Under the pieces are notes generated by a model. The model ran no database searches and was not told where the DNA came from. It was given only the letters and a program-made list of their open reading frames with translations. Source: a virus. From it: DNA of 22,100 nt. Shown here piece after piece: positions 7,656 to 22,056 of this stretch. Where the stretch lies: the IMG/VR virus record IMGVR_UViG_3300027741_000300, positions 1 to 22,100 of that record; one strand, 5' to 3'. Position 1 is the first letter of the stretch, and each line of letters opens with the position of its first letter. Made by a program: the position numbers and the translations under genes.

Positions 7656-7874
7656 TCATTCCATTCGATCGCAACAACCGCTTATTGCCTCGACACCTTC
7701 AGGCCACGCGCGGGCCGCGATTTCGTCTGAGATGGATTTATGCGCGCCAATGGGGCAGCCGGTTGAATTTTCAAACAAATTCATTGATGCCGAGCAGTGG
7801 CGCAACTGCTCGCATTGCTGGCAGGTTCTTAACCGTTTTTCTACAATCCAGCGCGGGCTCACGAGTTTTCCCAT
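7656..7874 (-). CDS. Small cysteine-rich protein, possible zinc-binding
   Basis: The product is 72 residues from ATG 7874, overlapping the preceding gene by 16 bp. It has six cysteines: a CxxC pair at 18/21, then Cys27, Cys40 and adjacent Cys67/68. The stretch IVEKRLRTCQQCEQLRHC resembles the opening of small metal-binding proteins found in some phage tail operons. CxxC with later cysteines suits a zinc or iron-sulfur site. Its place between tail-tip and fibre genes suggests a tail assembly or hub role, but this is not established. Confidence 0.5.
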   Translation of the reverse strand: MGKLVSPRWIVEKRLRTCQQCEQLRHCSASMNLFENSTGCPIGAHKSISDEIAARAWPEGVEAISGCCDRME

Positions 7875-9199
7875 GTGACGTTGTAGGCGACGTTCACCGA
7901 CCAATTTGCGTTGTTGTAATCGCGCCACATGCCGCTTTTGTTGACCGCAAACGAAAAACCCGTGGCCGATTGAGTCAATCTTGCGGGCAACCCATACTGT
8001 TTTTCAAAATCAGTTCCGGTGGGTTCAAACCGAATATCTACCACCGACGTTACAGGCCGCAAAAACCACCGCACCGGAAACCCAGCTTTTTCAAACCGCA
8101 ATTCCTTGAGAGTTTTTCGAATAGTCCCAAAATAAGGAGCACCAAACGGCGCTTTGTAAAACTCGGTGTAGGGAGGACCTTGAACAATGGTTGAAATTGG
8201 CGCGCCATATTTGTCGATGCGAATTTCTACTTCGTTGAGTTTTTCAATTTTTTCGGTGCCTTCCGAAACTCCGATTAGCTCAAACGGCAACGCAGCACTT
8301 TGGATCGTGTCGTCGTGACTTTCCGGATGAATTTCATTTTCAAGCCCATCAACCCATGTAACGCCAGGGTCAAAAAATTCTTTTGAATGAATAGTTAGAG
8401 GTGGGTTTTGGTCGTCATTGACCAGTTCACCATTTGCCCAGACAAATTGATTACCAGACAAATCCACTTTACGGGACCACAAATCACCAAGCCACGCGTC
8501 AAAGTCTTCTTTGGCGTCAAAAAATGTCGATGCCCGTTCGGTGTTTTCTGGAAGGGGATTAGGCGTTATGTCGTTAGGCGCACCCGGGAAAAAAATGGGC
8601 GGCGCTGTGTTGGTTAACAACAAGTTTAGCCAAGCCACAAATGCGTCGGGACTTTCAAAGATATACTCGTCGGGTTTTTGAGACGGTGGAAAAGTACCAG
8701 GAAACCACATGGAACCCGAGTTGATCAATTTGTCCAAAATTGGAACCGCTGTTGAAATCGGGTAAAACGGCACAAAGTTAATTTGACCGGCGTCATATTT
8801 TAACAGCACCTCTGCACCGGCTCCAAACTTAGGAAACGGGTAATCTGGTTGGACTTGGTAGACCGGAGCAGGAATTTGGCGAACCGCAAAACCGGCATAC
8901 GCGTCGCCTTTGACTAAAACAGGCGGTTGATTGTCCGGTGGTGGCGAACCGTCGTCTGGCGGCGTCACTACTGGCGCGGGTTGGACCACGTAGCCCGATT
9001 CTTTCTTTAGCCGATCACCTCCGCATTGTAGAGCCCGAGGCGAAAAAGCAACGTGCGGCGTTTTAGGTTTCCACGTGCCAACAATGCTTTCTTCTCGGAT
9101 GTAATAATCAAAAGCCGCGTGTTGTGACCACGTGTAATTGATGTTACAAGAAACAGTAAATTTCTTGAACCGAAGCCGATTCAAAAAACTGTTGCTCAT
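7859..9199 (-). CDS. Large tail-tip protein of unknown function
   Basis: The product is 446 residues from ATG 9199, in ATGA overlap with the gene before it. The N-terminal 60 residues are basic and beta-rich. A proline/aspartate linker follows (about 95-115: PPDDGSPPPDN). The long remainder is rich in Phe, Trp, Pro and Tyr, with acidic segments (DAKEDFDAWLGDL). The C-terminus ends with a beta-rich stretch (NVAYNVTWENS). No signal peptide, coiled coil or enzymatic motif is seen. Its place after the tape measure suggests a hub or host-contact protein, but it does not look like a lambda J or Tal protein. Confidence 0.6.
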   Translation of the reverse strand: MSNSFLNRLRFKKFTVSCNINYTWSQHAAFDYYIREESIVGTWKPKTPHVAFSPRALQCGGDRLKKESGYVVQPAPVVTPPDDGSPPPDNQPPVLVKGDAYAGFAVRQIPAPVYQVQPDYPFPKFGAGAEVLLKYDAGQINFVPFYPISTAVPILDKLINSGSMWFPGTFPPSQKPDEYIFESPDAFVAWLNLLLTNTAPPIFFPGAPNDITPNPLPENTERASTFFDAKEDFDAWLGDLWSRKVDLSGNQFVWANGELVNDDQNPPLTIHSKEFFDPGVTWVDGLENEIHPESHDDTIQSAALPFELIGVSEGTEKIEKLNEVEIRIDKYGAPISTIVQGPPYTEFYKAPFGAPYFGTIRKTLKELRFEKAGFPVRWFLRPVTSVVDIRFEPTGTDFEKQYGLPARLTQSATGFSFAVNKSGMWRDYNNANWSVNVAYNVTWENS

Positions 9200-9750
9200 G
9201 TTGCGACGTATTTAAGGTCACAAACGCTTGGAACCGGCGCGCTGCACAAATTTAAAATCTTTTGATAAGGTTGCCCAGCGTTGTCGATCTTTGTGATTAG
9301 CCGCGCAATGGGATAATATGCTTCGGCTTCAGATTGAGCAGGTATTGCGGCTTTGATCTCAAATTTTGCAGTGTCAATGAGCGTTGAATTTGCTTTGAAC
9401 GTGACCGTCATGAGCACGTAGCCATCCGTCCAGGCTAAATCAAGCGGCGGGTCGTCGGTCATTTGCATTCCAATGGGCAACACTCCTTGCGGCATTACAA
9501 GGCCCCAAGCAATCGTGATGCGCCAATCGCTTGCTGATTTGTTGGCTGCCGATACCTGCCACGGACAAGGCATTGTTGACGAGCTGCCGCCGGTGCTTGT
9601 GCCTGGGTCGATCACCAACGCAGTTCCGCCGGGACCGCGCGTAAATCTGCCGCCCATGACAGACGTGATTTGAGCGGCTCGGATCTCGTCTGAAAGTTGA
9701 TTCAGGTCTGAGATTTTTAACTCTTGGTTGGCAACAAAACGCGGAATCAT
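9196..9750 (-). CDS. Tail-tip associated protein of unknown function
   Basis: The product is 184 residues from ATG 9750. An N-terminal helix (ELKISDLNQLSDEIRAAQI) is followed by a glycine-rich strand region (GGRFTRGPGGTALVI) and a beta-rich body (PCPWQVSA, WRITIAWGLV). The start, a helix with DLNQLSDEI before a G-rich strand, resembles the beginning of phage fibre or baseplate attachment proteins. It follows the previous gene by 1 bp and overlaps the next, so it belongs to the same operon. Its specific function is unknown. Confidence 0.55.
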   Translation of the reverse strand: MIPRFVANQELKISDLNQLSDEIRAAQITSVMGGRFTRGPGGTALVIDPGTSTGGSSSTMPCPWQVSAANKSASDWRITIAWGLVMPQGVLPIGMQMTDDPPLDLAWTDGYVLMTVTFKANSTLIDTAKFEIKAAIPAQSEAEAYYPIARLITKIDNAGQPYQKILNLCSAPVPSVCDLKYVAT

Positions 9751-9751
9751 A

Positions 9752-10381
9752 TCAATACCAATCCGAATTCCAACCGCCTGGAGCGGAGCCCAAATAAACC
9801 GTTGTCACCCTGTAACCAGCTCCTTCTTGCACCGCTGAAATGCCATCGAGAAGAAAATTGACGCCACTTGGAACGCTGAATGGAAAGCTTTCGGAGGCAA
9901 TCTTTCCAACGCCTTCAAGGCTAGGCAATGTTTGCAAAAGTTCGGTTTTGCGCACGACAATTCGCGAAGCCTTGTACGAGGTCTGGCCGTACACCCATGC
10001 CTTGTATAAGTTTTGAATGTTGACGTCTGTGACAGAGTCGGCCCACTTGATATTGGCTGAATCAGTCGGATTTTCTTTGTACTTTAACCAAGCTTTCAAG
10101 TTGCCGTTGCCGGCCAACTTTGGGTGCGATTCGAGCGGTTCCTCAGAAGTCGAGACTTCAACCGCCCACGAAATGCCGTTTGTTCCGCCGCCGCCGCCGC
10201 CGCTGCCTGAGTCGTTTGTGTAAACGTTGGTTACGGTGCAACGGCCTGTGTCGTCCGTCTGAACACGGTACGAAGTTGCGCTCAAATCTGGTTCGAGCGT
10301 TTCGCTGAGCGACGAAAAAACAACCGTTTTGGTGTAAACGCCGCGCGAGTCGCGTTCTTGTGTCGTTGAAATTTTGGCCAT
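9752..10381 (-). CDS. Tail protein of unknown function, glycine-run linker
   Basis: The product is 209 residues from ATG 10381, 1 bp after the tape measure stop. The N-terminal domain (1-55) is beta-rich. A flexible GSGGGGGG run (about 58-66) joins it to a larger domain (70-209) with many aromatic residues, ending in APGGWNSDWY. By position, first after the tape measure, it could be the distal tail protein, but no recognisable Dit or lambda M/L motif is visible. Confidence 0.55.
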   Translation of the reverse strand: MAKISTTQERDSRGVYTKTVVFSSLSETLEPDLSATSYRVQTDDTGRCTVTNVYTNDSGSGGGGGGTNGISWAVEVSTSEEPLESHPKLAGNGNLKAWLKYKENPTDSANIKWADSVTDVNIQNLYKAWVYGQTSYKASRIVVRKTELLQTLPSLEGVGKIASESFPFSVPSGVNFLLDGISAVQEGAGYRVTTVYLGSAPGGWNSDWY

Positions 10382-10382
10382 G

Positions 10383-12113
10383 TTAATTTGGGAACACTCC
10401 GCCGCGTTTGTCGGAAATCATTTTTAAGAGTAAATTTGTTTGAGCGATGCGCTCGTTGGCTTGGCGTTGAGCCACGAGTTGATCGCGGGCTATTTTGCCC
10501 AGGTCAAACATGTCGACGCCGTTTTCCCGCGTAGATGCGCCAATTCGCGCAAACGATGAAAAGACGTTGGGAAGCTTGTTAAATTTTGCGGCTTCAGGTT
10601 CTGGACTTTGTAAATTGCCAGCGCCTAAACCGGTTGCCGTAGGGTTGTTTTTTACGGTTTGATTCAACAACGTGTTGTACCGACCAATTGCGCTATCAAT
10701 TAGCGTTTGAAGATTTGCAAAATCTTGATTTGGCAATTGCGGCCCAATTGGTCCTTCTTTTGCGGTTTTGTAAGCTGTGCCAATTTCAGAAAACAACGCC
10801 TTGATGTCATCCATGCTTTTGACAAAAACAGTGTTGTTAAACTCAATTTGTCCTTTGCCAACTTGAGCTCTTCCGGCTTGTTCAGTTAACAATCCGGTGC
10901 GATTCAGTTGAGAAACCTCTTCATCACTTACCATTTGGCGACTGATAAATGAATTGGCTCGAAGCGATGCCAAGACGGAAGCAATGCCTTGTTGAATTTG
11001 TCCGACAAAGATTTTGCCAACTCCAACAAATGCGTCGCGAAACGCCGCAAAGAATGAATTCAAATCGATGGCTTTTACTGCTACCGATAACGCAGATTGC
11101 AACCCGTATGCTATGGCAACGATTTTGTCGCTAAGTTCTTTTGCAAAACCTAAAGCCGCACTTTTCAAAGCCGTGCCAAATTCACCGCTTTTGACCAACT
11201 CGGCCAAAACGCCAAACGCGGCGCCAATGCGCAACCCCACTGAAGCAAGGTCGAGTTGCAGTAAATCTTCAACAATCTTCACCGCTGGAGTGAGGGCGGG
11301 ATGTATTTTTTCAAAGCCGCGAATGACATCCAAAAGGCCTTTTTTGGGCGCATCAATGATGCTTAAGATCTCCGGAGCAATTCCCGCCGCGATGCCGGTA
11401 AACAGTCCTTGAAGCTTTAATTTTGCGGCGTTGGCAATGTCTGCCAGCGTCGAACCTGAAGCTCCAAGTACAAGCGCGATGCGAGCAAACATTCCGGCGG
11501 CGGCCTGCATCATGTCCGCTTGCTTTCCCAACGCTTGAGCCGCTCCCGACATGGTGGTTGGGTTCATGGCAAAAACCATGCGTTGTCCATTTTCCCCCAT
11601 GAGCGCCAACGCAGACGCGGCTTGATCAGCGGGCGTTTTGATTTGGCCCACAGCGCGCGCAATTGTTTCAAGACGTTGTCCGGTGTTGAGGTTTTGCAGG
11701 CTTTGAAGGGTAACACCTGCATCAGACAACGCTTTGGTGGCGGCAGGCGTGTTTTTTGCGGCGTCCGATAACACCGCGTTCATTTTCTTTGTGGCATCAA
11801 CCAGCCCGTCGGAAGATCCGCCAACCATGCGGAAAGCTTCTTGCATCTGCATGAGCTGTGCCACCGTCAAGCCCGTTGATAAGCTGGCGGCCTGTAAATT
11901 GGCTCCCATGTCAATTACGCCTTTGATTGCGGCGGCGCTCGCCACTGCGGCGCCTGTCAATGCCGCTCCGATCGCTACTGTTGCTTGAGCAAAACGGGAA
12001 GGACCTTCCGAGTTAGCGGCCTGCTCCTGAAACTGCTTCACGGCGTTTTGCGCCATGGCAATCCCGGCTAAAAACCGTCCTGCATCGAGCGCTAGTTCTG
12101 CGACTGCTGCCAT
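10383..12113 (-). CDS. Tape measure protein
   Basis: The product is 576 residues, with start and previous stop sharing TAATG. The sequence is alanine-rich and helical, with a hydrophobic span at about 43-66 (ATVAIGAALTGAAVASAAA) and further hydrophobic helices near 200-255. Repeated motifs such as GLTVAQLMQMQEAFRMVG, DAAKNTPAATKALSDAGV and LMGENGQRM are standard in siphovirus tape measures. It sets tail length and is threaded through the tube. At roughly 1.5 angstrom per residue, a tail of about 85-90 nm would be expected. It follows the GT chaperone as usual, with one unknown gene between. Confidence 0.88.
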   Translation of the reverse strand: MAAVAELALDAGRFLAGIAMAQNAVKQFQEQAANSEGPSRFAQATVAIGAALTGAAVASAAAIKGVIDMGANLQAASLSTGLTVAQLMQMQEAFRMVGGSSDGLVDATKKMNAVLSDAAKNTPAATKALSDAGVTLQSLQNLNTGQRLETIARAVGQIKTPADQAASALALMGENGQRMVFAMNPTTMSGAAQALGKQADMMQAAAGMFARIALVLGASGSTLADIANAAKLKLQGLFTGIAAGIAPEILSIIDAPKKGLLDVIRGFEKIHPALTPAVKIVEDLLQLDLASVGLRIGAAFGVLAELVKSGEFGTALKSAALGFAKELSDKIVAIAYGLQSALSVAVKAIDLNSFFAAFRDAFVGVGKIFVGQIQQGIASVLASLRANSFISRQMVSDEEVSQLNRTGLLTEQAGRAQVGKGQIEFNNTVFVKSMDDIKALFSEIGTAYKTAKEGPIGPQLPNQDFANLQTLIDSAIGRYNTLLNQTVKNNPTATGLGAGNLQSPEPEAAKFNKLPNVFSSFARIGASTRENGVDMFDLGKIARDQLVAQRQANERIAQTNLLLKMISDKRGGVFPN

Positions 12114-12790
12114 TATTTTCCAAATGCCTCCTGTAACTGGGTTTCACCGCGCAATTTTGCTGCGGCCTCTAAACGAGAGATTTGACGTTTGGCGGCGTAA
12201 TCAAGCCGCCGTTGCATGTCGGTGACTTGGTTTGCAAATTTTGCGTTGTTGGTAGCCCTTACACCAAAACGCGATTCGGTTTTAGTAACTTGAACCGAAC
12301 CGTCTGTGGTTTTGTTTTGAGCCCAGTTAGGCGCTGAAACGCCGAATTTTTTGGAGGCCGCGTTCCAGCCCGATTGCAAAGCGCCAACGCGAGAATGCAA
12401 AAACGTTTCAACACCTTTGAACGCGTCGGTTGTTACCGTTAATTTTGGGCCGCCTGCAAATCTGCCGCGCGAATTGCGTTTGCCTTGCAGCCAGGACAAC
12501 GCTTTTTCTGCGGTAGCGGCTCTGCCTCCGATTGTTTGCGTAACCACTCGAAAAGCTTTTCGAAGGTCAACTGTGATACTGGTTTTTCCTCGCTGGTAAG
12601 ACACACTTAACAACGTGCCGCCTCCGGCTGGCGGCGTTACGTTGCGAACGTCGCGCAGGTAATCCCGAAATGACAACGCTACGGCACCAGGCAACCCGAC
12701 GCCGTCTTCAGCAAGGCCGATTGCAACGCGTTTAGCGGTGTTTGCCGCCCATTGCGCCTGAACTTGGCTGATGTCAAATTTCATCTCCAT
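12113..12790 (-). CDS. Tail assembly/minor tail protein of unknown function
   Basis: The product is 225 residues if started at ATG 12790; ATG 12784 (MKFDIS) is equally possible, and a longer form from 12820 lies wholly within the GT frame. The protein is basic and largely helical (ISQVQAQWAANTAKRVAIG, QRRLDYAAKRQ), with a middle basic stretch (GKRNSRGRF). It overlaps the end of the GT frame and the tape measure start, so all are translated together. Its position between chaperone and tape measure suggests tail assembly; no family is recognised. Confidence 0.6.
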   Translation of the reverse strand: MEMKFDISQVQAQWAANTAKRVAIGLAEDGVGLPGAVALSFRDYLRDVRNVTPPAGGGTLLSVSYQRGKTSITVDLRKAFRVVTQTIGGRAATAEKALSWLQGKRNSRGRFAGGPKLTVTTDAFKGVETFLHSRVGALQSGWNAASKKFGVSAPNWAQNKTTDGSVQVTKTESRFGVRATNNAKFANQVTDMQRRLDYAAKRQISRLEAAAKLRGETQLQEAFGK

Positions 12791-13010
12791 CGCAATTAAC
12801 GATTTGGTCAACTGCCGCAATCAACTCGTTGAGTTGAGCCGACACGGATGGGCCAGGCGCAACCGTCCAAGCGCCGCGCATCCATTGGATGGCGTGCCAA
12901 TATTGAAGGGCTCTTGATAGCGGCAGGTGCCATAAAATGAACTCCTCAGACCAACCAAACTCTTTTGCTAAGGAAGCCAGCAAGACCACCGGCCAAGCTG
13001 GCGCTACGAT
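12774..13010 (-). CDS. T domain of the GT tail assembly chaperone (reached by -1 frameshift)
   Basis: In the -1 frame after the heptamer at 13010-13016 the sequence runs IVAPAWPVVLLASLAKEFGW on to a stop at 12774, giving 78 residues. GWSEEFILWHLPLSRALQY is a motif style common in the C-terminal part of long tail chaperones. A GTG at 12989 could be called as a separate start, but the frame is open and in register with the slip site, so the natural product is a 215-residue GT fusion. GT proteins bind the tape measure and recruit tube subunits. Confidence 0.75.
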   Translation of the reverse strand: MVAPAWPVVLLASLAKEFGWSEEFILWHLPLSRALQYWHAIQWMRGAWTVAPGPSVSAQLNELIAAVDQIVNCDGDEI

Positions 13011-13016
13011 TTTCCC
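12976..13016 (-). promoter_or_regulatory. -1 programmed frameshift signal: G GGA AAA plus stem-loop
   Basis: The G-frame codons are CCG GGA AAA TCG TAG. The heptamer G GGA AAA (13016-13010) is the lambda-type slip sequence. Seven bases further on, GCCAGC (13002-12997) pairs perfectly with GCTGGC (12981-12976) around a 15-nt loop. Heptamer, spacing, stem and the in-frame stop just after the slip all fit programmed -1 frameshifting. Confidence 0.8.
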
Positions 13017-13420
13017 GGCGCGCCCTCCTCGGGAGATCCGGGACGGGGAACAATTTCAATTTGCGCCGCTGAAATGCGTTTGGAGATTTTGAATAACTGC
13101 TCGGTGAGTTGAGCAATGACGGACGGATGAAGTTGCGCTTCAAAATCTGCGGCCAAATCCAAAGCGGATCCGTCATCGAGCGCGCGTCGCACTAAAGAAA
13201 CGGGTTCCGATTGTGCCCATGCAAACGCAACTAACTGACGAGAAATTTCGTCTTCGGAAATTGGATCGGCTTTTGCAGCCTCTTCGGGCGAACGCAAAAA
13301 GATGCTCAACCCTAATTTGCGACACGCGCGCCCAGTCATAAGCGACATTGGACGCAACGTGATGTTTTCAATGATTGTGTCGCCTTCAAAGAAAGCGTCA
13401 TCAAGAGTGGTCGATTCCAT
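13004..13420 (-). CDS. Tail assembly chaperone G
   Basis: The product is 138 residues from ATG 13420. The frame is open further upstream, but that stretch overlaps sensible coding of the previous gene and reads as an off-frame Arg/Pro/Ser-rich translation. The body ITLRPMSLMTGRACRKLGLS, EISRQLVAFAWAQSEPVSLV and HPSVIAQLTEQLFKISKRI is the all-helical pattern expected of lambda-G-like chaperones. It ends in an acidic/proline tail at the slip site. It is made in excess over GT, and both are usually absent from mature virions. It overlaps the preceding gene by 85 bp. Confidence 0.75.
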   Translation of the reverse strand: MESTTLDDAFFEGDTIIENITLRPMSLMTGRACRKLGLSIFLRSPEEAAKADPISEDEISRQLVAFAWAQSEPVSLVRRALDDGSALDLAADFEAQLHPSVIAQLTEQLFKISKRISAAQIEIVPRPGSPEEGAPGKS

Positions 13421-13983
13421 AAATATCGGTTGAAATCTTCCAGCAACCGCGCTTGAACTTCCGGCGCACAGCGGTCTTTGTCCATGAGCAGGACCTTGTT
13501 GTTTTTTCGGATGCACAGCAGCGGTTTGACGCTTTTTAGCCAACCGCGGAAGTCGTAAAGCGCGTCGCGACGGGCGCGCAGTTTGGCGACTGGATGAGTG
13601 GGGTTTTGAGTTGCCCACGCTTTGCTTTGCCAAGCGTCGCGGAACTGTTGAAACCGCATCTTTACAGGCTTTTGAGCGGTGACTTTGGCGGCTGCAACTC
13701 GGGTTGCAAAGGTTTCAAACGTCAATGTTTCGCCGTTAAAAATTTCGCGCAACTGTTCCGGATCAATTACGTCGGAGCCAAAAATTGCTTCGTGCTCGGC
13801 GTTGAAGTTCCACCGCACTTGCCGTTTGGGCCCATCCGGCGTTTGTTCGACGGAATCAATGTAGTTGCACCCATCGGCAAGCTTACCTTCGCCGTCATAT
13901 AAAAATGCAAACGCCATGTCGCTGTTTTGGCTTTGCAACGGTGGCAAATCGTCAGCAATCGTAAATATACTCTTGTTCAACAT
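13336..13983 (-). CDS. Unknown protein between tail tube and chaperone genes
   Basis: The product is 215 residues from ATG 13983. It is mixed alpha/beta. A beta-rich first part (MAFAFLYDGEGKLADGC, RQVRWNF) is followed by a helical basic part with several Trp and Arg (RFQQFRDAWQSKAW, LRARRDALYDFRGWL). The last 26 or so residues are simply the off-frame reading of chaperone G. It carries the heptamer A AAA AAC (13507-13501), from which the -1 frame is open into G. No family is recognised; by position it may be a tail protein. Confidence 0.6.
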   Translation of the reverse strand: MLNKSIFTIADDLPPLQSQNSDMAFAFLYDGEGKLADGCNYIDSVEQTPDGPKRQVRWNFNAEHEAIFGSDVIDPEQLREIFNGETLTFETFATRVAAAKVTAQKPVKMRFQQFRDAWQSKAWATQNPTHPVAKLRARRDALYDFRGWLKSVKPLLCIRKNNKVLLMDKDRCAPEVQARLLEDFNRYLWNRPLLMTLSLKATQSLKTSRCVQCRL

Positions 13984-14003
13984 ATAAATTGAATTTTGGG
14001 AAA

Positions 14004-14345
14004 TTAAATTCCACCATCGCCACCGCCACCACTACCAACGCTAGCGGTCGGATATGCTTCGCCGCTTACTTCAAAACCGCTATAGCCGGTGTTTGAAGAG
14101 TTTTGCTTAATAGACGTTACCAAAATCAAACCGCTTAAATTGCTGGGGCCTGCGGCGGTCGAGCCCAGCGAAGAAATGATTGGGTCGCCTTTGCCTTTCA
14201 CGCTCCAAGTCATTTTCTTGTCGTGCGCACGCGCTTCAGAAAAAGCCCCGGTGAAATCGGTCAACACCACCACATCCGACTTCATTGAAACGCTAACCGC
14301 TTCAATCAAAGTCCCAGTTACTAGAGTAATTCCAAAAGATGGCAT
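14004..14345 (-). CDS. Tail tube-like protein, second of two related genes
   Basis: The product is 113 residues from ATG 14345, 2 bp after the preceding gene. It shares with that gene the start M-(A/P)-(T/S)-FG, an S-VV-LTDFTG--SEARAHDKK block with a KGKGD turn, SGL-LVT-IK, and a late EVSGEAYPTA strand. It ends in a glycine-rich tail (SVGSGGGGDGGI). Beta-rich small proteins at this place, after the tail terminator and before the chaperones, normally build the tail tube. Confidence 0.6.
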   Translation of the reverse strand: MPSFGITLVTGTLIEAVSVSMKSDVVVLTDFTGAFSEARAHDKKMTWSVKGKGDPIISSLGSTAAGPSNLSGLILVTSIKQNSSNTGYSGFEVSGEAYPTASVGSGGGGDGGI

Positions 14346-14347
14346 AA

Positions 14348-14650
14348 TTAGATGGCGACGTAGCCGGTGTAAGTAACTTCAGAAGTTGGATATTCTTGGG
14401 ATTCGTCCGTTTTGCTTTCCGTAACCGTAAGGCCGGAAAACACTCCCAAAGCGACGTCAGTCAAAACCACTTCACCTTTGGTTTTGATTGTAACCTTGGT
14501 AGTTTTCACTTTTTTTAGTCGTGCATCAACGGTCTTGCCCGTTTCATCTCGCAGCGTAATGACTTCGGCGGATTCTTCTTTTGAAGTTTCCTGAACGAAT
14601 CCGCTGGGCGCAGTTACCCCAAAAAGTTTTGTTGCTCCGAATGTAGCCAT
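14348..14650 (-). CDS. Tail tube-like protein, first of two related genes
   Basis: The product is 100 residues from ATG 14650. Its pattern is SAEVITLRDETGKTVDARLK, a KTKGEVVL turn, GVFSGLTVTESK and SEVTYTGYVAI, aligning loosely with the next gene over most of its length. It is predicted to be mostly beta. It follows the predicted tail terminator by 16 bp. Tail tube subunits of this small type are known in several siphophage groups. Whether both copies enter the tube, or one caps it, cannot be told. Confidence 0.6.
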   Translation of the reverse strand: MATFGATKLFGVTAPSGFVQETSKEESAEVITLRDETGKTVDARLKKVKTTKVTIKTKGEVVLTDVALGVFSGLTVTESKTDESQEYPTSEVTYTGYVAI

Positions 14651-14666
14651 ACCTTACAGAGACGCG

Positions 14667-15053
14667 TCAACTGCGAGGGCCGTAGCCGGTCAAGTAGACA
14701 AGGTGTTTTTCCCAACTCGTGTTCTCGCGTTGGTTATCCGTGTTTTGGGCGATGACGCCATACAGCGCGATGGGTCCCGTTGCAAAATACGGTTTCATGC
14801 TGCGAATGGCGGCATCAATGGCGTTGCAATCGGCTTGGTGTTGTCCTGGCGTTGTGTCGTCGGCCTGCGAAATGACAATGACGGTCAATGTGCCTTGTTC
14901 CAGCATTGAACCCACAACGACTTCGGCTCGAATATCAACAACAATTGCGGGCGCGTTTAGCTCGCGTGCGCTGTTGGCGGCGTAAACCGAGCGTTGAGGA
15001 AACGACGTTGCCAGATAACTAACAACGGCCTCGCAAAATTGAAGGTCGATCAT
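14667..15053 (-). CDS. Tail terminator / tail completion-like protein
   Basis: The product is 128 residues from ATG 15053, in ATGA overlap with the connector gene. The sequence begins with a helix (MIDLQFCEAVVSYLATSF), continues with a beta strand pair (PAIVVDIRAEVVVGS, GTLTVIVISQADD), then a helix (DCNAIDAAIRSM) and ends in WEKHLVYLTGYGPRS. This strand-helix layout with an exposed strand close to the end is that of lambda U/gp17-type tail terminators. Order after the head completion gene supports this. Confidence 0.6.
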   Translation of the reverse strand: MIDLQFCEAVVSYLATSFPQRSVYAANSARELNAPAIVVDIRAEVVVGSMLEQGTLTVIVISQADDTTPGQHQADCNAIDAAIRSMKPYFATGPIALYGVIAQNTDNQRENTSWEKHLVYLTGYGPRS

Positions 15054-15358
15054 GGCGATGGGGATGCAATCCCAATGATGAGTTGCAAGGCGTCTTCTTC
15101 AACTTCGGCCACACGACACGCGCGGCCCGCAATGGTGATCAAATCGCCATTTTTTGGGCGAGGGGACATGACGCCGCTCGGCACAAGTAACATGCCGGAA
15201 AGTTGCATGTTAAAACCGCCAACACGAATGGTTCGCTTTTCAATCAGGTGGTTTTCTTTGCCTTGGTAAACGTTGCCAGCGTGTTCGAACGTCACGCTGT
15301 CAACGATCGCAAGCGCGCGCGCAAAAGCCCGTCGTGAAGCATCCAAAACGCGGCTCAT
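15050..15358 (-). CDS. Head-tail connector / head completion protein (FII-like by position)
   Basis: The product is 102 residues from ATG 15358, in ATGA overlap with the gene before it. A helix (SRRAFARALAIVDSVTF) leads into a small beta barrel: YQGKENHLIEKRTIRVGGF, LSGMLLVPSGV, RPKNGDLITI and RACRVAEVEED. The barrel with the PKNGDLI-I pattern fits head-tail joining proteins of the lambda FII or gp16 kind. Confidence 0.6.
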   Translation of the reverse strand: MSRVLDASRRAFARALAIVDSVTFEHAGNVYQGKENHLIEKRTIRVGGFNMQLSGMLLVPSGVMSPRPKNGDLITIAGRACRVAEVEEDALQLIIGIASPSP

Positions 15359-15600
15359 TTCTTCTTTTGCGTCGGCGCGGGCTCGATCAGTTCTGGCGGT
15401 AATGCCATAGGAGCGGCAACGCCTTTTAAATCGGCAGCGCGTACGGTTTTGACCATGTCCGGCTCAAGTTGCGTGAATAACGCCCATTTGCCGATTCGAT
15501 CCGGATTTCGGAAGAAACGCGTGGCCTCTTCGGCGGAATCGGTGGAAAGGGCAACTTGAAAACCAGCGCCCTCGTTAATTGCTACAATGTGAACTTTCAT
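15355..15600 (-). CDS. Small protein after the capsid gene, unknown (FI-like by position)
   Basis: The product is 81 residues from ATG 15600. The frame is open slightly further, but the earlier start lies in the terminator hairpin. The sequence is MKVHIVAINEGAGFQVALS, then a helical part with EEATRFFRNPD and GKWALFTQLEPD, and a Lys-rich end. Lambda has the packaging accessory FI at this place, but no sequence likeness is claimed. Expression would depend on readthrough of the terminator just upstream. Confidence 0.5.
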   Translation of the reverse strand: MKVHIVAINEGAGFQVALSTDSAEEATRFFRNPDRIGKWALFTQLEPDMVKTVRAADLKGVAAPMALPPELIEPAPTQKKK

Positions 15601-15608
15601 AAAAGGAA

Positions 15609-15638
15609 AAGGGCCCTTGTTTGTGCGCAAGGGCCCTT
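15609..15638 (-). terminator. Hairpin terminator directly after the major capsid gene
   Basis: The perfect 11-bp inverted repeat AAGGGCCCTTG / CAAGGGCCCTT has an 8-nt loop. On the leftward transcript it is followed by TTCCTTTT, an imperfect U-tract. It lies between the capsid stop (15655) and the next start (15600). Partial termination here would raise capsid mRNA relative to downstream genes. Confidence 0.75.
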
Positions 15639-15654
15639 GAATTACTGCCTAAGA

Positions 15655-16554
15655 CTAGGCGCTCGTGACGCGAACGGCAAAAGGCGAACCCTTTGCAGCG
15701 CCCCACAGCGCAGCCATGGAGAGATAGAAGTTACCTTCGGTTGGTACGTACCAGCGGCGATACTGAACCGTCATGTTCAGCCCAGGGATCAGCATGTCGT
15801 AGACCTCGACGCCAGCTTGAGCGGCTCCGGTGGCATCGATGCGGCGGCTACCAACAACAATCGCGGAATTGTGCAGGGCAACAGCACCAAGGTTTTCCGT
15901 GTTGTCTGGGAAATAGTTGACTTCATAGATGTCAAACCCAGCAACGCGAGGAACGCGGCCTTCGGCTTTTTCGGCCGTGATGCCGGGGAATTCCGCGCTG
16001 TTAAGCGACTTTAGCAAACTAGCGTAATAATCGGAATTCGCCAACATGGCGCGGTTGCTGATCGGAGCGCGCAAAGGTTCCTTGTTCAAGGTAGCGCGCA
16101 AATCAATAACGTCCGAGCGGTCAAAATTGCCGCTGGTCGAAACATACGACGTCGAAAAATTTGCAGCCGTAAGCAACGCGTGAATTCGGCCATAAATCTT
16201 TTTACCCAGGACTTCAAAACCCGGATTGGTAAAGAGCGCGGGCAGATCAACAGCCGAACGCGAACGCTCAACGTCCGAAAACGCTTTGACGTATCGAGGA
16301 AAGCGGTTGAAGGGCACAGTGACGGCAACCGTGGTGCCAGCAGTTGCCGCATACATGGCAGAGCTGGGCGACGTGGAATCGTCGGCGTCGGTGTCGGGAA
16401 TGACATAACGCGACGTAATGGATTCCGCGTTTTGACTGACTTCAGGAGAGAAGTCGGTCGTGAACGCGGACATTGGAGCAAGAAGGTTCTGCCAGTAAGG
16501 CAGGCTTTCTTGAGCGATTTCTGCGAGGTTTACGCCTGCAAGTGTGTTGGCCAT
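15655..16554 (-). CDS. Major capsid protein
   Basis: The product is 299 residues from ATG 16554. Residues 1-60 (MANTLAGVNLAEIAQESLPY) resemble the N-arm region of HK97-fold capsid proteins of the P22/E-like lineages. The body has NRFPRYVKAFSDVERSRSAV, RAMLANSDYYASLLKSLNSA, AGFDIYEVNYFPDN and ending strands MTVQYRRWYVP. It follows the scaffold-like gene and precedes a strong terminator and the connector genes, the usual place. The fold assignment rests on length, composition and order. The upstream leader TTCAAAAAAATAGACT has no Shine-Dalgarno sequence. Confidence 0.82.
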   Translation of the reverse strand: MANTLAGVNLAEIAQESLPYWQNLLAPMSAFTTDFSPEVSQNAESITSRYVIPDTDADDSTSPSSAMYAATAGTTVAVTVPFNRFPRYVKAFSDVERSRSAVDLPALFTNPGFEVLGKKIYGRIHALLTAANFSTSYVSTSGNFDRSDVIDLRATLNKEPLRAPISNRAMLANSDYYASLLKSLNSAEFPGITAEKAEGRVPRVAGFDIYEVNYFPDNTENLGAVALHNSAIVVGSRRIDATGAAQAGVEVYDMLIPGLNMTVQYRRWYVPTEGNFYLSMAALWGAAKGSPFAVRVTSA

Positions 16555-16584
16555 AGTCTATTTTTTTGAAGGGTTTTGAAATGA

Positions 16585-16998
16585 TTACGCGCGGAGGATG
16601 GCGCGGTGTTTTGAATAAAATGCCGATTGCTGTTCAAGAGGCAGCTTGTGGAATGTTGCCCAAAGACCTTCTTTTGAGACGGAATCAGCCTCTTGTTTCA
16701 AAGGTGCCTGTGACGCGGGCTCCACGCCGACGCTGGCCAAGGTGGCAACCATTTGCGCGTTTGCGTTTGCCTCGGCGTTTTTCAAACTGGCGTTTTCAGT
16801 AAGTAATGCAGCGACCTGTTCGGTGAGCTGCGCATTTTCAGCGGTTACCGCCACGATCTTTTCGTTAATTGCAACACTGGACGTGTTGAGCGCGGTTAAC
16901 TGCTCGGACATTTCCGAAACTTTGGCGGTCAACTCGTCAACTTGTGCGGTTGCGGCAATTGCGGCCTGAGTTGCTTGCGCGAGAGAGGCAAATTTCAT
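16585..16998 (-). CDS. Putative capsid scaffolding protein (coiled coil)
   Basis: The product is 137 residues from ATG 16998. Residues about 8-85 form a continuous heptad-rich coiled coil (TAQVDELTAKVSEMSEQLTA, ENAQLTEQVAALLTENASL). An acidic linker follows, then a C-terminal helix EQQSAFYSKHRAILRA that is basic and could bind the capsid subunit. A helical protein of this kind between head protease and capsid gene is the usual scaffold. It may be cleaved by the protease. Confidence 0.65.
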   Translation of the reverse strand: MKFASLAQATQAAIAATAQVDELTAKVSEMSEQLTALNTSSVAINEKIVAVTAENAQLTEQVAALLTENASLKNAEANANAQMVATLASVGVEPASQAPLKQEADSVSKEGLWATFHKLPLEQQSAFYSKHRAILRA

Positions 16999-17014
16999 AC
17001 CTTTAAGAAAGCCG

Positions 17015-17851
17015 TCAACTGTTCACCATTTGCAGCAACTGAGCGTAAGCTTGGTTTTCCGTTGTGACCTCATCGATGAGGTTGGCTTGCAAACCGTCGG
17101 GCATCGCAAAAAAGCATTGCCCGCGCATTGTTTCCGGCGCGACCGCTCGGTTGCGAAGCACGACGGAACGGAACGTGTTGAACGCCGTTTGAACGTACGC
17201 CTGCATTGAGTCGCGTTGAGCTGGCGTCAAGGAAGGCCCGTGGCCGGCGGCTTTCAGGTCGCCTTCCGTGTTGGTAATGGGTTGAAACTCCATGCCGGCC
17301 GCAGACCAGGCGCGCGAAGTGTCCACCCATGGAACCAAAGTTCCGATTGATCCGACCGACGCGGACGAACTGGCCATTATTTTGTCGCAGTTCACTCCCA
17401 GCATGTACGCCGCCGAGTGCATTTCGTCATCAGTCCAAGCCACAGAAGGCACTGGGAGATTAAAAATTAGGTCGGCAATTTCACCGCAACCCGTGACAGA
17501 TCCGCCCGGTGAATCGAATTCAAACCACACACCGGCACACCCGTTTTCAATGACGTCGTTGAGTTCTTTTTCAAGGTCGTCGTAGGACGTGTTTCCGCAC
17601 GATTTGACAATTGAAGAAAGCCCCTTTCCTAGGACGCCGCAAACGTGAATGTGCGCAATGCCAGCGCCGTCAATGAACATCGGGCGACGCGGATTCACAA
17701 ACTCATCTAAATCCATTCCGCTGTCTTCCGCTTTGACGCCGTACGCGGTGCCGAGTTTAGACTCTAGCAGCATTCGAACCGACGCGTGACCGGCGGGCGT
17801 GATATGCCACGGCTTAAAGTTGACCTGTTCAATCAATCGTTGGAGTCGCAT
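17015..17851 (-). CDS. Head maturation protease, S49 (SppA/ClpP-like)
   Basis: The product is 278 residues from ATG 17851. The frame is open up to 18115, but AGGA stands 5 nt before ATG 17851 and the longer part duplicates portal coding. GIAHIHVCGVLGKG starts the fold and FEFDSPGGSV forms the oxyanion loop. Ser146 in MHSAAYML is the nucleophile, and Lys200 in GDLKAAG the likely general base. SSASVGSIGTLV is also typical. It resembles the protease portion of lambda C and would cleave scaffold and head proteins. It overlaps the portal end by 23 bp. A separate scaffold gene follows instead of an internal one. Confidence 0.9.
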   Translation of the reverse strand: MRLQRLIEQVNFKPWHITPAGHASVRMLLESKLGTAYGVKAEDSGMDLDEFVNPRRPMFIDGAGIAHIHVCGVLGKGLSSIVKSCGNTSYDDLEKELNDVIENGCAGVWFEFDSPGGSVTGCGEIADLIFNLPVPSVAWTDDEMHSAAYMLGVNCDKIMASSSASVGSIGTLVPWVDTSRAWSAAGMEFQPITNTEGDLKAAGHGPSLTPAQRDSMQAYVQTAFNTFRSVVLRNRAVAPETMRGQCFFAMPDGLQANLIDEVTTENQAYAQLLQMVNS

Positions 17852-19397
17852 AATTTCCTGTCTGTTCCATTTCACTTCCGTCAGCATTTTGATTTGGGTC
17901 GCCTTGATCCGGCGGGTTGCCGTTTGGCGTGATGATTCCAAAATCTGCGATGGGAATGCCGTACTCAGTCGCAATTTGCCGTTTAAGCTGCGCTTCGTAA
18001 GCACGATCGCGGTAATGCTCCTCAATGGTCTTTCCTCGCCAATCCTGAATGTCTGCCATGTTGGCCGAACCCATTTTGTAAGCTTCGCGGGCGTTTTGAG
18101 CCGACCAGCCGTCATCCGCTGTCAACTTGGCGGCATGAGTGAAACGCCATTTCAGGAACCCGCCGATTTCGCCGGAGTACGGCGGCAGGATTCCCAGTTT
18201 GATCGCTTTTGAGATCGCGTATCCCACACGCCGACGGGCGACGGTGGTCAGCAAGCGTTGACGACGTTCAATGGCGCGGTTCACTTTGTCGATAACCACT
18301 CGGACATTTGCGCCCGAGGCATCAAATCGGTAAAAAAATTCGGGCGGCATTTGAGCCGACAGCAGCGCGTTGCGGATTAGCCATTCGACAAGGCGTTCTT
18401 GCGCTTGGCTTGGCGTGGTTGGTGTGAGCTGCTCCAGCTTTTGGCCTGAGTCGGCTTTGAAATACCGAATCATGCCGCCGACCATTTCTTCATACTGAAG
18501 CTTTGCGCGTTCTACAACGCCTGTGCCGCTGAGGTCGTCCGCACCGCCAACGCCAGGCAAACCAAGGGCGGACGCCGGATCCATGGGATTTTGAAACCCG
18601 GTGTCGTTGTATTCCATCAACCCGATTGACGCGGCAATGGCTCCAGCGGTCTTGATGTAGCCTTGAACTTGAGACAGGTCGCGCAGATCCAACAAAGCAG
18701 CCGTCCAAGACGGAAACCCGCGCACCTGATCGGCTACCTTTGTGACCCGAAGAAAGTCTACCGAGTTTGCTGGGTAGATGCGATCATCCGCGGCGGTGAT
18801 GCCGCGCACCGCGTAGCCAATGGCGCGGTTTTGGTCGTTGAGAATTATTCCATTGTAACACCGACGTCCCTTGAACGGGCCGGTTTCAACCTTGGTGTCG
18901 TCGTTGCGCAAACCGAGTTGATGCCACGCAATTTGCTGTAATTGGGGAAAACCGGATTTGGCTTCCGTGTAAAGCGTGGTTGCATCTCCATCGCGTGTCA
19001 GTTGGGTGCAATCCAGCTCGATTCCTTCAGAAAACGAACCGCCGGAAACGTACGCAATCGGCATCCACGTTTCGTTAATCCATTCCTCAGCCAGCGCGCC
19101 CCAGCTTCGATCAATACCGCAGAACCGCGCCTTCCATGGTCCGCCGACAAAGGTTGAAAACTCTTCGGTGGCCCCGTGAATTGGGCCATAATTCCAGTAA
19201 AGGCGGTTTGAGCTGGAAACAATGTTGCGCCATTCGCTTGGCGTAACCTCGACATCAATGCGCTGGTTGTGTTGCTGCCAAAAGGGCCGCACGCCGTACC
19301 AACCCGCTTGAATGAGGCGCGGATTGTTTGGGTATGTGCCGCCCGAGTTTGCTTCAACCTTGGGTTTTCGGAATGCCGATAGAAGTTTTCCGAACAT
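17829..19397 (-). CDS. Portal protein, lambda B family
   Basis: The product is 522 residues, taking ATG 19397 (MFGKLLSAFRKPK), which starts 1 bp after the upstream stop; a GTG at 19445 would add 16 residues inside the previous gene. Features of lambda-type portals are present: SSSNRLYWNYGPIHGATEEF early, the W-I-A-vSGGSFSEG block, AIGYAVRGITAADDRIYPAN, DLRDLSQVQGYIKTAGAIAA, and a late stretch LLSAQMPPEFFYRFDASGAN. Length is close to lambda gpB (533). It forms the dodecameric DNA channel and motor base. Its C-terminus is polar and probably flexible. Confidence 0.92.
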   Translation of the reverse strand: MFGKLLSAFRKPKVEANSGGTYPNNPRLIQAGWYGVRPFWQQHNQRIDVEVTPSEWRNIVSSSNRLYWNYGPIHGATEEFSTFVGGPWKARFCGIDRSWGALAEEWINETWMPIAYVSGGSFSEGIELDCTQLTRDGDATTLYTEAKSGFPQLQQIAWHQLGLRNDDTKVETGPFKGRRCYNGIILNDQNRAIGYAVRGITAADDRIYPANSVDFLRVTKVADQVRGFPSWTAALLDLRDLSQVQGYIKTAGAIAASIGLMEYNDTGFQNPMDPASALGLPGVGGADDLSGTGVVERAKLQYEEMVGGMIRYFKADSGQKLEQLTPTTPSQAQERLVEWLIRNALLSAQMPPEFFYRFDASGANVRVVIDKVNRAIERRQRLLTTVARRRVGYAISKAIKLGILPPYSGEIGGFLKWRFTHAAKLTADDGWSAQNAREAYKMGSANMADIQDWRGKTIEEHYRDRAYEAQLKRQIATEYGIPIADFGIITPNGNPPDQGDPNQNADGSEMEQTGNYATPTID

Positions 19398-19398
19398 G

Positions 19399-19671
19399 TT
19401 ATCTGAAGAAAGCAACCGCGCGGCGCACCGGCGTTGTGAGGCCACGGATTTTGTGATCGATGGCCATTTGGCACAGCGTCATAAGTTGAGCAGGCGTCAA
19501 CATTGAGTCCGTGCGGAAATTGAATGTGGTGCCGTTAACGCTCGACGACACCAGCGAGCCATCCCCAGCGGCGACAATTTCAAATTGTGCGTCTCTCAGC
19601 GCGCGCAGCTCCGCCATGTCGCGCGCGATAAAAACGGGGAGTAAAGAGAGATAGTCGACATCGTCCGCCAT
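19399..19671 (-). CDS. Small head-tail joining protein (gpW-like by position)
   Basis: The product is 90 residues from ATG 19671, 3 bp after the terminase stop. Helix (VDYLSLLPVFIARDMAELRA), a short hairpin region (GSLVSSSVNGTTFNFRTDS) and helix (TPAQLMTLCQMAIDHKIRG) match the alpha+beta plan of gpW, which sits between terminase and portal genes in lambda. The C-terminal end is basic. gpW plugs the connector after packaging. Confidence 0.6.
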   Translation of the reverse strand: MADDVDYLSLLPVFIARDMAELRALRDAQFEIVAAGDGSLVSSSVNGTTFNFRTDSMLTPAQLMTLCQMAIDHKIRGLTTPVRRAVAFFR

Positions 19672-19674
19672 GCC

Positions 19675-21474
19675 TTAAGGCGTATCGTCAACCGCAGGCG
19701 TGAACCCGCCCGAGCTTACCCTGTCGGAATAAATGCCGAGCACGTAACACATGGCGACCAATTGCGCTTCGGCATCCCAAAGATGATTGGCGCCGACTTC
19801 GACGTAACGAAGTTCGATTTGTTTGGTTTTTTGGTTCACTACCTCGCGCAGCGCCTCGCCTTGCATGTGTTTCCGCCACAGCTCCGGCACGTCCTTTGGA
19901 AACTCAAACGCGGGCGGGCCTTCGGCGCGTAAACGAACCAATTGGTCTTTGATTTTGCGGTTGCTCCAGTTGTAATAACGAGCCGCCGGAGCGTTAATCT
20001 GCGTTGCGTTTTTGTGGTATTTCACCGGGGAAATAAACCGCCGAAACGAGACGCCTTTTCCCACATGAAGAAAGCTCTCTTCTTTTGAACCACGCATGGC
20101 GGTCCAGTTGAATTTTGAGCAGTCGTCGTACGACGCAACACCAAGCCAACCGCCCGCGTCCAATAACACCAAAGGATCGGGCGCTTTCAAACGCAGTTGG
20201 AGAGCGCGTAATTCATCCCGATGGAATAGACGCCCGGTCCAAAGCAATTTGCTCGAACCATCCGTGCGGATAGCGCGCGCCACAACCCAAAACCCGTCTT
20301 GAGCACGGTCGCAACTGATGATGCGGTGCGTTTCAGCCTCCACTTTGCGACCATCGGCAAAGTCCTCCATGGAATAGTCGCTGGCTTTCAAATCGACCTC
20401 GACAACTTCGGCTTCGATGCGCGAGGGCTCAGCCAGGCGCTGCATAGTGAATGTTGACCGCGCTTCGGGATTGCCTTTTTTACGCTCGCGTTCCGCAAGG
20501 ATGAATTGGCGGACTAGATCGACCCAAGCGACCCAGTAAATGCCCATGCTCGGAATTTGGCGCGACCTCCAACCGGGAATGTGAGTATTGCCGTCAGATT
20601 TGTAAGACGCTCGCAAAGCCATTGCGCGCCGAGCCGCCGGAGTGTCTGGCGTTTCGTGACCGCACCCCAAGCAAATGTGACGCACGGTCTCGGTGAGGGC
20701 GGACCAATCCCATTTTCCGGCTTTTGTTTTGGTCTCCTCCCACCGAATCGAGTTCCACTCAAACCGCTGCCAGTTGTTGCACGCTTCACAGGTGTAGCCC
20801 CAACGGAAGATTTTCCCAGAATCGAACTCTTCAACCAGGTCGTGATCAGCGGCGGGCCCTTGAGAAAGAAAAAGTGATTTGCGAATGGGACGATCGTGGT
20901 GCCGCTGTTTGAACTGACGGATCATGTCGCGATTCCAAAGCCAGACCTCGTCAGCAATGCCCCATTGAAGCGATTTTTCTTGAAGACTCGAAGTGTTGGC
21001 CGCGCCCAAGAATAAAGGCATGTGCGGAAAAATGATTCCGCGCTTGGTGATCAGCGAAGTGTCGTTTGGAAGAAGGACGTTGACCGGGTCGCAGGCTTTT
21101 AGGACCGGAGACAAACGAGAATTCACCCACGCCAGCACGGTGTCTTCGGTGTTTCCGAAGAAACCGGTTGGTCCGGGTTTTACCGAAACAACGTAACAGA
21201 GTAACGCCTCGATAAGGGATGTTTTGCCCGCACCTGGCGAAGCAAAGCAGGTGACCTGAGTGACGGCGTCGTCACACCAGTCGTTGATTACGTCGTTCCA
21301 CCACGGCGCAAGCGAACGCACAAAGACGCTAGATTTGTCCGAGTGGGGAAATTTAACGTGAGCTTCCATCCATTCCAACGGCGTCAAATTTGGCGTGCCG
21401 AGGATGAACTTTCCCCAGTTGCAAAACTGTAATGAGCCAGCCCGTTGACGAGTTTTGGAGTTAATGTGGACCAT
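19675..21474 (-). CDS. terL: Terminase large subunit, GpA family
   Basis: The product is 599 residues from ATG 21474. The ATPase part has Walker A SPGAGKTS (79-86) and a Walker B-like IADEVW (173-178, Asp175/Glu176), and the coupling region LFLSQGPAADHD near 202. A zinc-ribbon insertion is visible as CEAC (229/232) and CLGC (268/271). The nuclease half has Asp389 (IISCDRAQDG), Asp439 (LVLLDAGG) and Asp567 (NHLWDAEAQ) as metal ligands. All essential motifs are intact. It cuts and pumps DNA with the small subunit. Members of this family often generate cohesive ends. Confidence 0.95.
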   Translation of the reverse strand: MVHINSKTRQRAGSLQFCNWGKFILGTPNLTPLEWMEAHVKFPHSDKSSVFVRSLAPWWNDVINDWCDDAVTQVTCFASPGAGKTSLIEALLCYVVSVKPGPTGFFGNTEDTVLAWVNSRLSPVLKACDPVNVLLPNDTSLITKRGIIFPHMPLFLGAANTSSLQEKSLQWGIADEVWLWNRDMIRQFKQRHHDRPIRKSLFLSQGPAADHDLVEEFDSGKIFRWGYTCEACNNWQRFEWNSIRWEETKTKAGKWDWSALTETVRHICLGCGHETPDTPAARRAMALRASYKSDGNTHIPGWRSRQIPSMGIYWVAWVDLVRQFILAERERKKGNPEARSTFTMQRLAEPSRIEAEVVEVDLKASDYSMEDFADGRKVEAETHRIISCDRAQDGFWVVARAIRTDGSSKLLWTGRLFHRDELRALQLRLKAPDPLVLLDAGGWLGVASYDDCSKFNWTAMRGSKEESFLHVGKGVSFRRFISPVKYHKNATQINAPAARYYNWSNRKIKDQLVRLRAEGPPAFEFPKDVPELWRKHMQGEALREVVNQKTKQIELRYVEVGANHLWDAEAQLVAMCYVLGIYSDRVSSGGFTPAVDDTP

Positions 21475-22056
21475 ATATCAACCATTGACCTTTCAAAACT
21501 CATTGGAGTTACACCCCGGCAAATAAGCAGATTGACGACAGACGGAGTGATTGCGCCCGTTGGTAAAAAACTCTGGGATGCGGAAAAAACGATTCCGGCT
21601 TATTGTCAATTTTTGCGCGAAGGGCGAAAACTGAACCAACACGCCACAATCGGCGACGAAGATGAGGAAGGGGAAAACGCGGTTGCCGTGCGCATCAAAA
21701 AAACGAAGCGAGAGATTAGGCTGCTCGACTTGAAGATTGAAGCGGAGGAGGGGAGATTAGTGGGGCGCGACGTAATTTTGGACGACGTAAAGACGGCAGC
21801 GGCCTTGATTGACGCGGAATTGAAACGGGCGGCTAGCGACATCGTGAGCCAGGGAGCGGGATTAGCTCAGGCGGCGTTGCAACGAGTGGTCGCGGATCGC
21901 GTGAATTTGTTGGTAAACAGGCTTCAAATTGTGCTCACGCCCAAGCTTCCCCCGCTACGCAACGCAAAAAAGAAGGCAAATCCCAAAGCAAAACCGCGTA
22001 ACTCGGTAAAAAAACGCGCCAAAACAAAATCACCGGTTCAAAAAAATACGGACTAG
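21466..22056 (+). CDS. Terminase small subunit, Nu1-like, divergent from terL
   Basis: The product is 196 residues from GTG 21466, chosen because GGAG lies 5 nt upstream (a TTG at 21445 would add 7 residues). Residues 1-50 form a winged helix-turn-helix-like domain (STIDLSKLIGVTPRQISRLT, GVIAPVGKKLWD) as in Nu1/MerR-type DNA binders. A charged helical section (KTKREIRLLDLKIEAEEGRL) probably mediates oligomerisation, and the C-terminus is highly basic (residues about 165-196). It would recognise the packaging site. Unusually it is on the strand opposite terL and overlaps its first codons by 9 bp. An unrelated phage DNA-binding protein is possible but less likely. Confidence 0.75.
   Translation: MDHISTIDLSKLIGVTPRQISRLTTDGVIAPVGKKLWDAEKTIPAYCQFLREGRKLNQHATIGDEDEEGENAVAVRIKKTKREIRLLDLKIEAEEGRLVGRDVILDDVKTAAALIDAELKRAASDIVSQGAGLAQAALQRVVADRVNLLVNRLQIVLTPKLPPLRNAKKKANPKAKPRNSVKKRAKTKSPVQKNTD

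Follow-up and report, generated by a model that had tools for sequence, protein, structure and literature searches.

Head-to-head terminase subunit genes in a tailed phage probably infecting Verrucomicrobiota

The small and large subunits of terminase act in one complex, and their genes are a textbook example of coupled, co-directional genes. They adjoin each other on one strand in nearly every tailed phage whose gene order is known (PMC3488191). The window analyzed here, a stretch of 22.1 kb that makes up the entire IMG/VR record IMGVR_UViG_3300027741_000300 of an uncultured virus, differs from this: a sequence-only reading had proposed that a Nu1-like small subunit gene (terS) runs rightward and the large subunit gene (terL) leftward, with start codons overlapping by 9 bp.

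These divergent, overlapping starts were confirmed. On the minus strand, terL extends from ATG 21474 to 19675 and encodes 599 aa, and because an in-frame TGA lies two codons upstream, this ATG is the earliest possible ATG, GTG or TTG start. The rightward open reading frame ends at 22056 on the plus strand and can begin at TTG 21445 or GTG 21466. A Shine–Dalgarno-like GGAG (21457–21460, plus strand), located antisense inside the first codons of terL, lies 5 nt ahead of the GTG, and alignment revealed that a start at this codon gives an N-terminus matching that of relatives in length. The overlap between terS (21466–22056, 196 aa) and terL is therefore taken as exactly 9 bp (21466–21474); a start at TTG 21445 would lengthen it to 30 bp. 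Two near-identical contigs contain the same junction, with zero differences across terS. Most genes of the minus-strand region 7859–21474 have no Shine–Dalgarno site near their start, whereas terS has one.

The leftward gene encodes a GpA-family terminase large subunit. Its product matched Pfam GpA_ATPase (3.9e-17; 63.2 bits against a curated cut-off of 25.6), GpA_nuclease (3.2e-8; 33.6 bits against a curated cut-off of 22.5) and PHROG_15 (2.8e-29), and the Walker A motif SPGAGKTS, the DE motif and the aligned Asp residues of the ATPase and nuclease are kept. Further leftward genes of the head module include a 90-aa gene between terL and portal (19399–19671), which has no PHROG match and is gpW-like by position only, the portal gene (17829–19445; Pfam Phage_portal_2, 4.9e-14), an S49-type head maturation protease gene (17015–18115; PHROG_53, 2.1e-43) and the major capsid protein gene (15655–16554; PHROG_267, 2.6e-15), all on the minus strand.

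The Nu1-like identity of the rightward gene was likewise upheld. Its product matched PHROG_57 (terminase small subunit) at 8.1e-14, with residues 4–153, or 150 of 196 aa, aligned to positions 13–169 of the 199-position profile, and six other long antisense open reading frames of the window gave no match at all. A TerS profile also recovers the gene among relatives. AlphaFold predicted helices at residues 6–13, 17–25, 68–94, 101–130 and 135–160, suggesting two N-terminal helix-turn-helix (HTH) helices followed by a long helical hairpin, or helical oligomerization region; pLDDT is above 85 for residues 71–160 and about 50–80 in the N-terminal part. Comparison of this fold with PDB structures yielded none at E < 0.001, profile matches to 7lwr, 6hn7 and 1j9i were weak (E 0.09–0.3), and a small terminase and a DNA packaging protein are among the weak matches to viral predicted structures. 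At its C-terminus, TerS carries a Lys-rich tail (21973–22053, plus strand; KKKANPKAKPRNSVKKRAKTKSPVQK) that is absent from the aligned relatives.

To place this layout among relatives, terL relatives were drawn from Verrucomicrobiota genomes and IMG/VR, and their terS genes were located by profile. When 26 genes from such loci were compared with PHROGs, 24 clearly matched PHROG_57, one matched weakly and one, a non-profile gene, had no match. In about 128 relatives from IMG/VR contigs and Verrucomicrobiota genomes, a count that includes near-copies, terS lies on the terL strand, mostly directly upstream. The two genes share a strand in 69 of the 71 IMG/VR loci with both genes, and the remaining two loci are the sister contigs of the window virus; the Verrucomicrobiota genomes contributed 35 same-strand loci and 24 more, a few of the latter with weak or distant TerS matches. 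Co-directional terS and terL genes are also present in the named phages P8625, CRP-811 and MQ-4. The premise that small and large terminase genes adjoin on one strand thus stands as a rule, in line with the literature (PMC3488191), and its "nearly always" has known exceptions in P2 and PY100. In some relatives, gene calling in G+C-rich DNA wrongly gave an antisense gene directly upstream of terL; in these, the TerS profile placed terS on the terL strand.

No head-to-head relative was found in overlapping sets of 387, 213 and 384 Verrucomicrobiota genomes or in an IMG/VR profile scan. Scans using TerL, TerS, portal and protease as single queries recovered the sister contigs only, and a TerL search of genome contigs found no relative. 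Among the loci compared, the head-to-head form occurs only in the population of the window virus, and it is a real and rare departure from the usual co-directional arrangement of the two genes. The relatives available for comparison are all distant: the nearest by terL (L276) has 34% identity over its length and an ordinary terS on the same strand, the two genes overlapping by 4 bp. When the window TerS was searched as a single sequence, it was closest to the TerS of L193–L198, which belong to the same part of the terL tree, a placement that fits flipping of terS in place. Among the nearest terL relatives, the TerS proteins of L276, L279 and L124 are 134–144 aa long with a profile match beginning at position 42–44, and they seem, from their sequences, to be without the HTH domain.

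The surroundings of terS were followed past the window in two IMG/VR contigs, 99.9% identical, that extend about 4.6–5 kb beyond its end. Leftward genes resume there, encoding a 142-aa orphan, a DnaC-like loader, a primosomal protein, a single-stranded DNA-binding protein (SSB), an Erf-like annealing protein and a Holliday junction resolvase, and relatives of the SSB indicate that the host is probably a member of the Verrucomicrobiota. Within the window, the recognizable genes are leftward except the one at 509–1147 and terS. With recognizable genes running leftward on both sides, terS stands as a single flipped gene between the modules for replication and packaging. The orphan (L005:5688–6116, minus strand) lies tail-to-tail with terS and has a low third-position G+C of 0.35; a recent insertion at this site may be linked to the terS flip.

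The orphan also bears on the best-surviving alternative, namely that the rightward gene encodes an HTH regulator and that the true small subunit is another, unrecognized protein. HTH domains are common to TerS and small regulators, annotations of TerS-like genes as MerR regulators exist, and small subunits can be without sequence similarity (PMC3488191), so that the orphan, on the terL strand right beyond terS, might be considered for this role; its structure model is poor (pLDDT 50), and structure therefore gives no ground for setting it aside. It is the one leftward candidate in the roughly 5 kb beyond the window, where the sequence-only reading had allowed for a true small subunit upstream on the minus strand, and it matched nothing in PHROGs, Pfam, PDB, phages or the 387 Verrucomicrobiota genomes. 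No second TerS was detectable with the TerS profile in the window and its extension (about 27 kb). As for the rightward protein, its PHROG_57 match spans both the HTH and the helical part, and hence at the sequence level the full TerS architecture, with no competing regulator family, and family relatives adjoin terL in more than 120 loci. We regard the regulator reading as quite unlikely.

Still less probable is that the flipped terS is an assembly artifact produced by a chimeric join. All three contigs represent one population (99.9% identity) with an incomplete genome, and as the samples may overlap, the assemblies are perhaps not independent. Against an artifact, the three records agree across the junction though they differ elsewhere, the overlap yields two intact, properly started genes with leftward genes resuming on the far side, and opposite-strand terS genes are present in unrelated prophages too. 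An invertible, phase-variable segment in which terS switches orientation within the population might be suspected from a single-gene flip in an otherwise one-directional array and from a tyrosine recombinase gene in the window, but is extremely improbable given that there are no inverted repeats around terS, that all three contigs have one orientation and that the recombinase matches ordinary phage integrases. The same search for bracketing repeats found none useful as marks of an inversion. We consider it likely that this is a tailed phage, probably of Verrucomicrobiota, in which a genuine terS has been flipped in place relative to the leftward replication, packaging, head and tail genes.

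The opposite-strand terS genes in prophages form a second layout. Five prophage loci (L147, L148, L278, L289, and L290) from three Verrucomicrobiota genomes, one of which (G763) contains three of them, have terL on one strand and a PHROG_57 gene on the other, as in the window. In contrast to the head-to-head arrangement of the window, this gene is downstream of terL, before portal where the latter was found; in L147 and L290 it sits between terL and portal. In the terL tree, L148, L278, L289, and L290 form a clade with full support and L147 branches nearby, whereas the window virus is located elsewhere, on a long branch. A common origin of the two layouts, which we also considered, is unsupported by this tree, and two or more separate origins of opposite-strand terS are therefore probable; the downstream antisense form was probably inherited through a clade. 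The terL of L148 is shortened, and this locus may be decaying.

Comparison with known systems places the window apart from each. Lambda (Nu1/A) and Verrucomicrobiota prophages (e.g., L122, L127, and L276) share with it the combination of a PHROG_57 protein and a GpA-type TerL, but their terS is directly upstream and co-directional, often with a 4-bp stop/start overlap, whereas that of the window is flipped. In P2, the terminase subunits are also on opposite strands, the large gpP leftward and the small gpM rightward in divergent late operons (NC_001895 annotation). The divergent starts in P2 are those of P and O, separated by a 173-bp gap with both transcription starts and one activator site, and M comes third in its operon; in the window, terS itself faces terL with zero gap, and the overlapping starts leave no P2-like intergenic region for divergent promoters. 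Yersinia phage PY100, named as an exception to same-strand adjacency, likewise has its subunits on opposite strands, but its terminase genes are widely separated (PMC3488191), whereas those of the window are adjacent and overlapping.

The arrangement has consequences for expression. The sequence-only reading had placed the two subunits under separate transcription units, each promoter necessarily lying inside the other gene. The first part holds to the extent that terS cannot share the terL transcript; the second is not forced, because transcription of the leftward genes upstream could continue into terL and no terminator rises above chance. Scans for sigma-70 promoters and terminators around the junction gave counts at chance on both strands, and folds of the 96-bp convergent gap were no more stable than those of shuffled sequences, with no convincing terminator. 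Each subunit would have its own transcript. For terS this would be a lone rightward message with a promoter in the antisense strand of terL; terL would be expressed either from a promoter within terS or through extension of the leftward upstream message into it. Such read-through would cover the whole of terS in antisense and might hinder its expression. Packaging might, as the sequence-only reading proposed, be gated by the timing of the rightward transcript. A stronger version of the interference idea, in which leftward read-through of the head operon suppresses terS, so that TerS is made only before, or is low during, late expression and this interference limits packaging initiation, appears rather unlikely. 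TerS and TerL would still meet as proteins and form an ordinary DNA-recognizing holoenzyme, and the likely consequence of the layout is an uncoupled dosage or timing of TerS rather than a new packaging mechanism.

One sequence motif recurs near gene starts. GTTGACG occurs 15 times against 4.8 expected and precedes the start codon by 21–22 bp in four of 36 genes (about 3e-8 per test, with some 1200 tests): 22 bp before terS (21444–21450, plus strand) and 21 bp before three leftward genes (14665–14671, 17013–17019, and 19686–19692, minus strand). In two of these four start-proximal copies, the motif includes the stop codon of the gene before, and the excess is partly accounted for by codon usage.

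Together, the head-to-head pair and the opposite-strand layout kept in a clade suggest that co-directional coupling of the terminase genes is dispensable in Verrucomicrobiota phages, and they provide a natural setting in which to ask whether packaging is limited by the dose or timing of TerS. The layouts are also a warning that, in phages of this kind, rules based on synteny will overlook TerS or give it the wrong label. Annotations of Fusobacterium phages ON464760–ON464762 list probable TerS genes as MerR family regulators.
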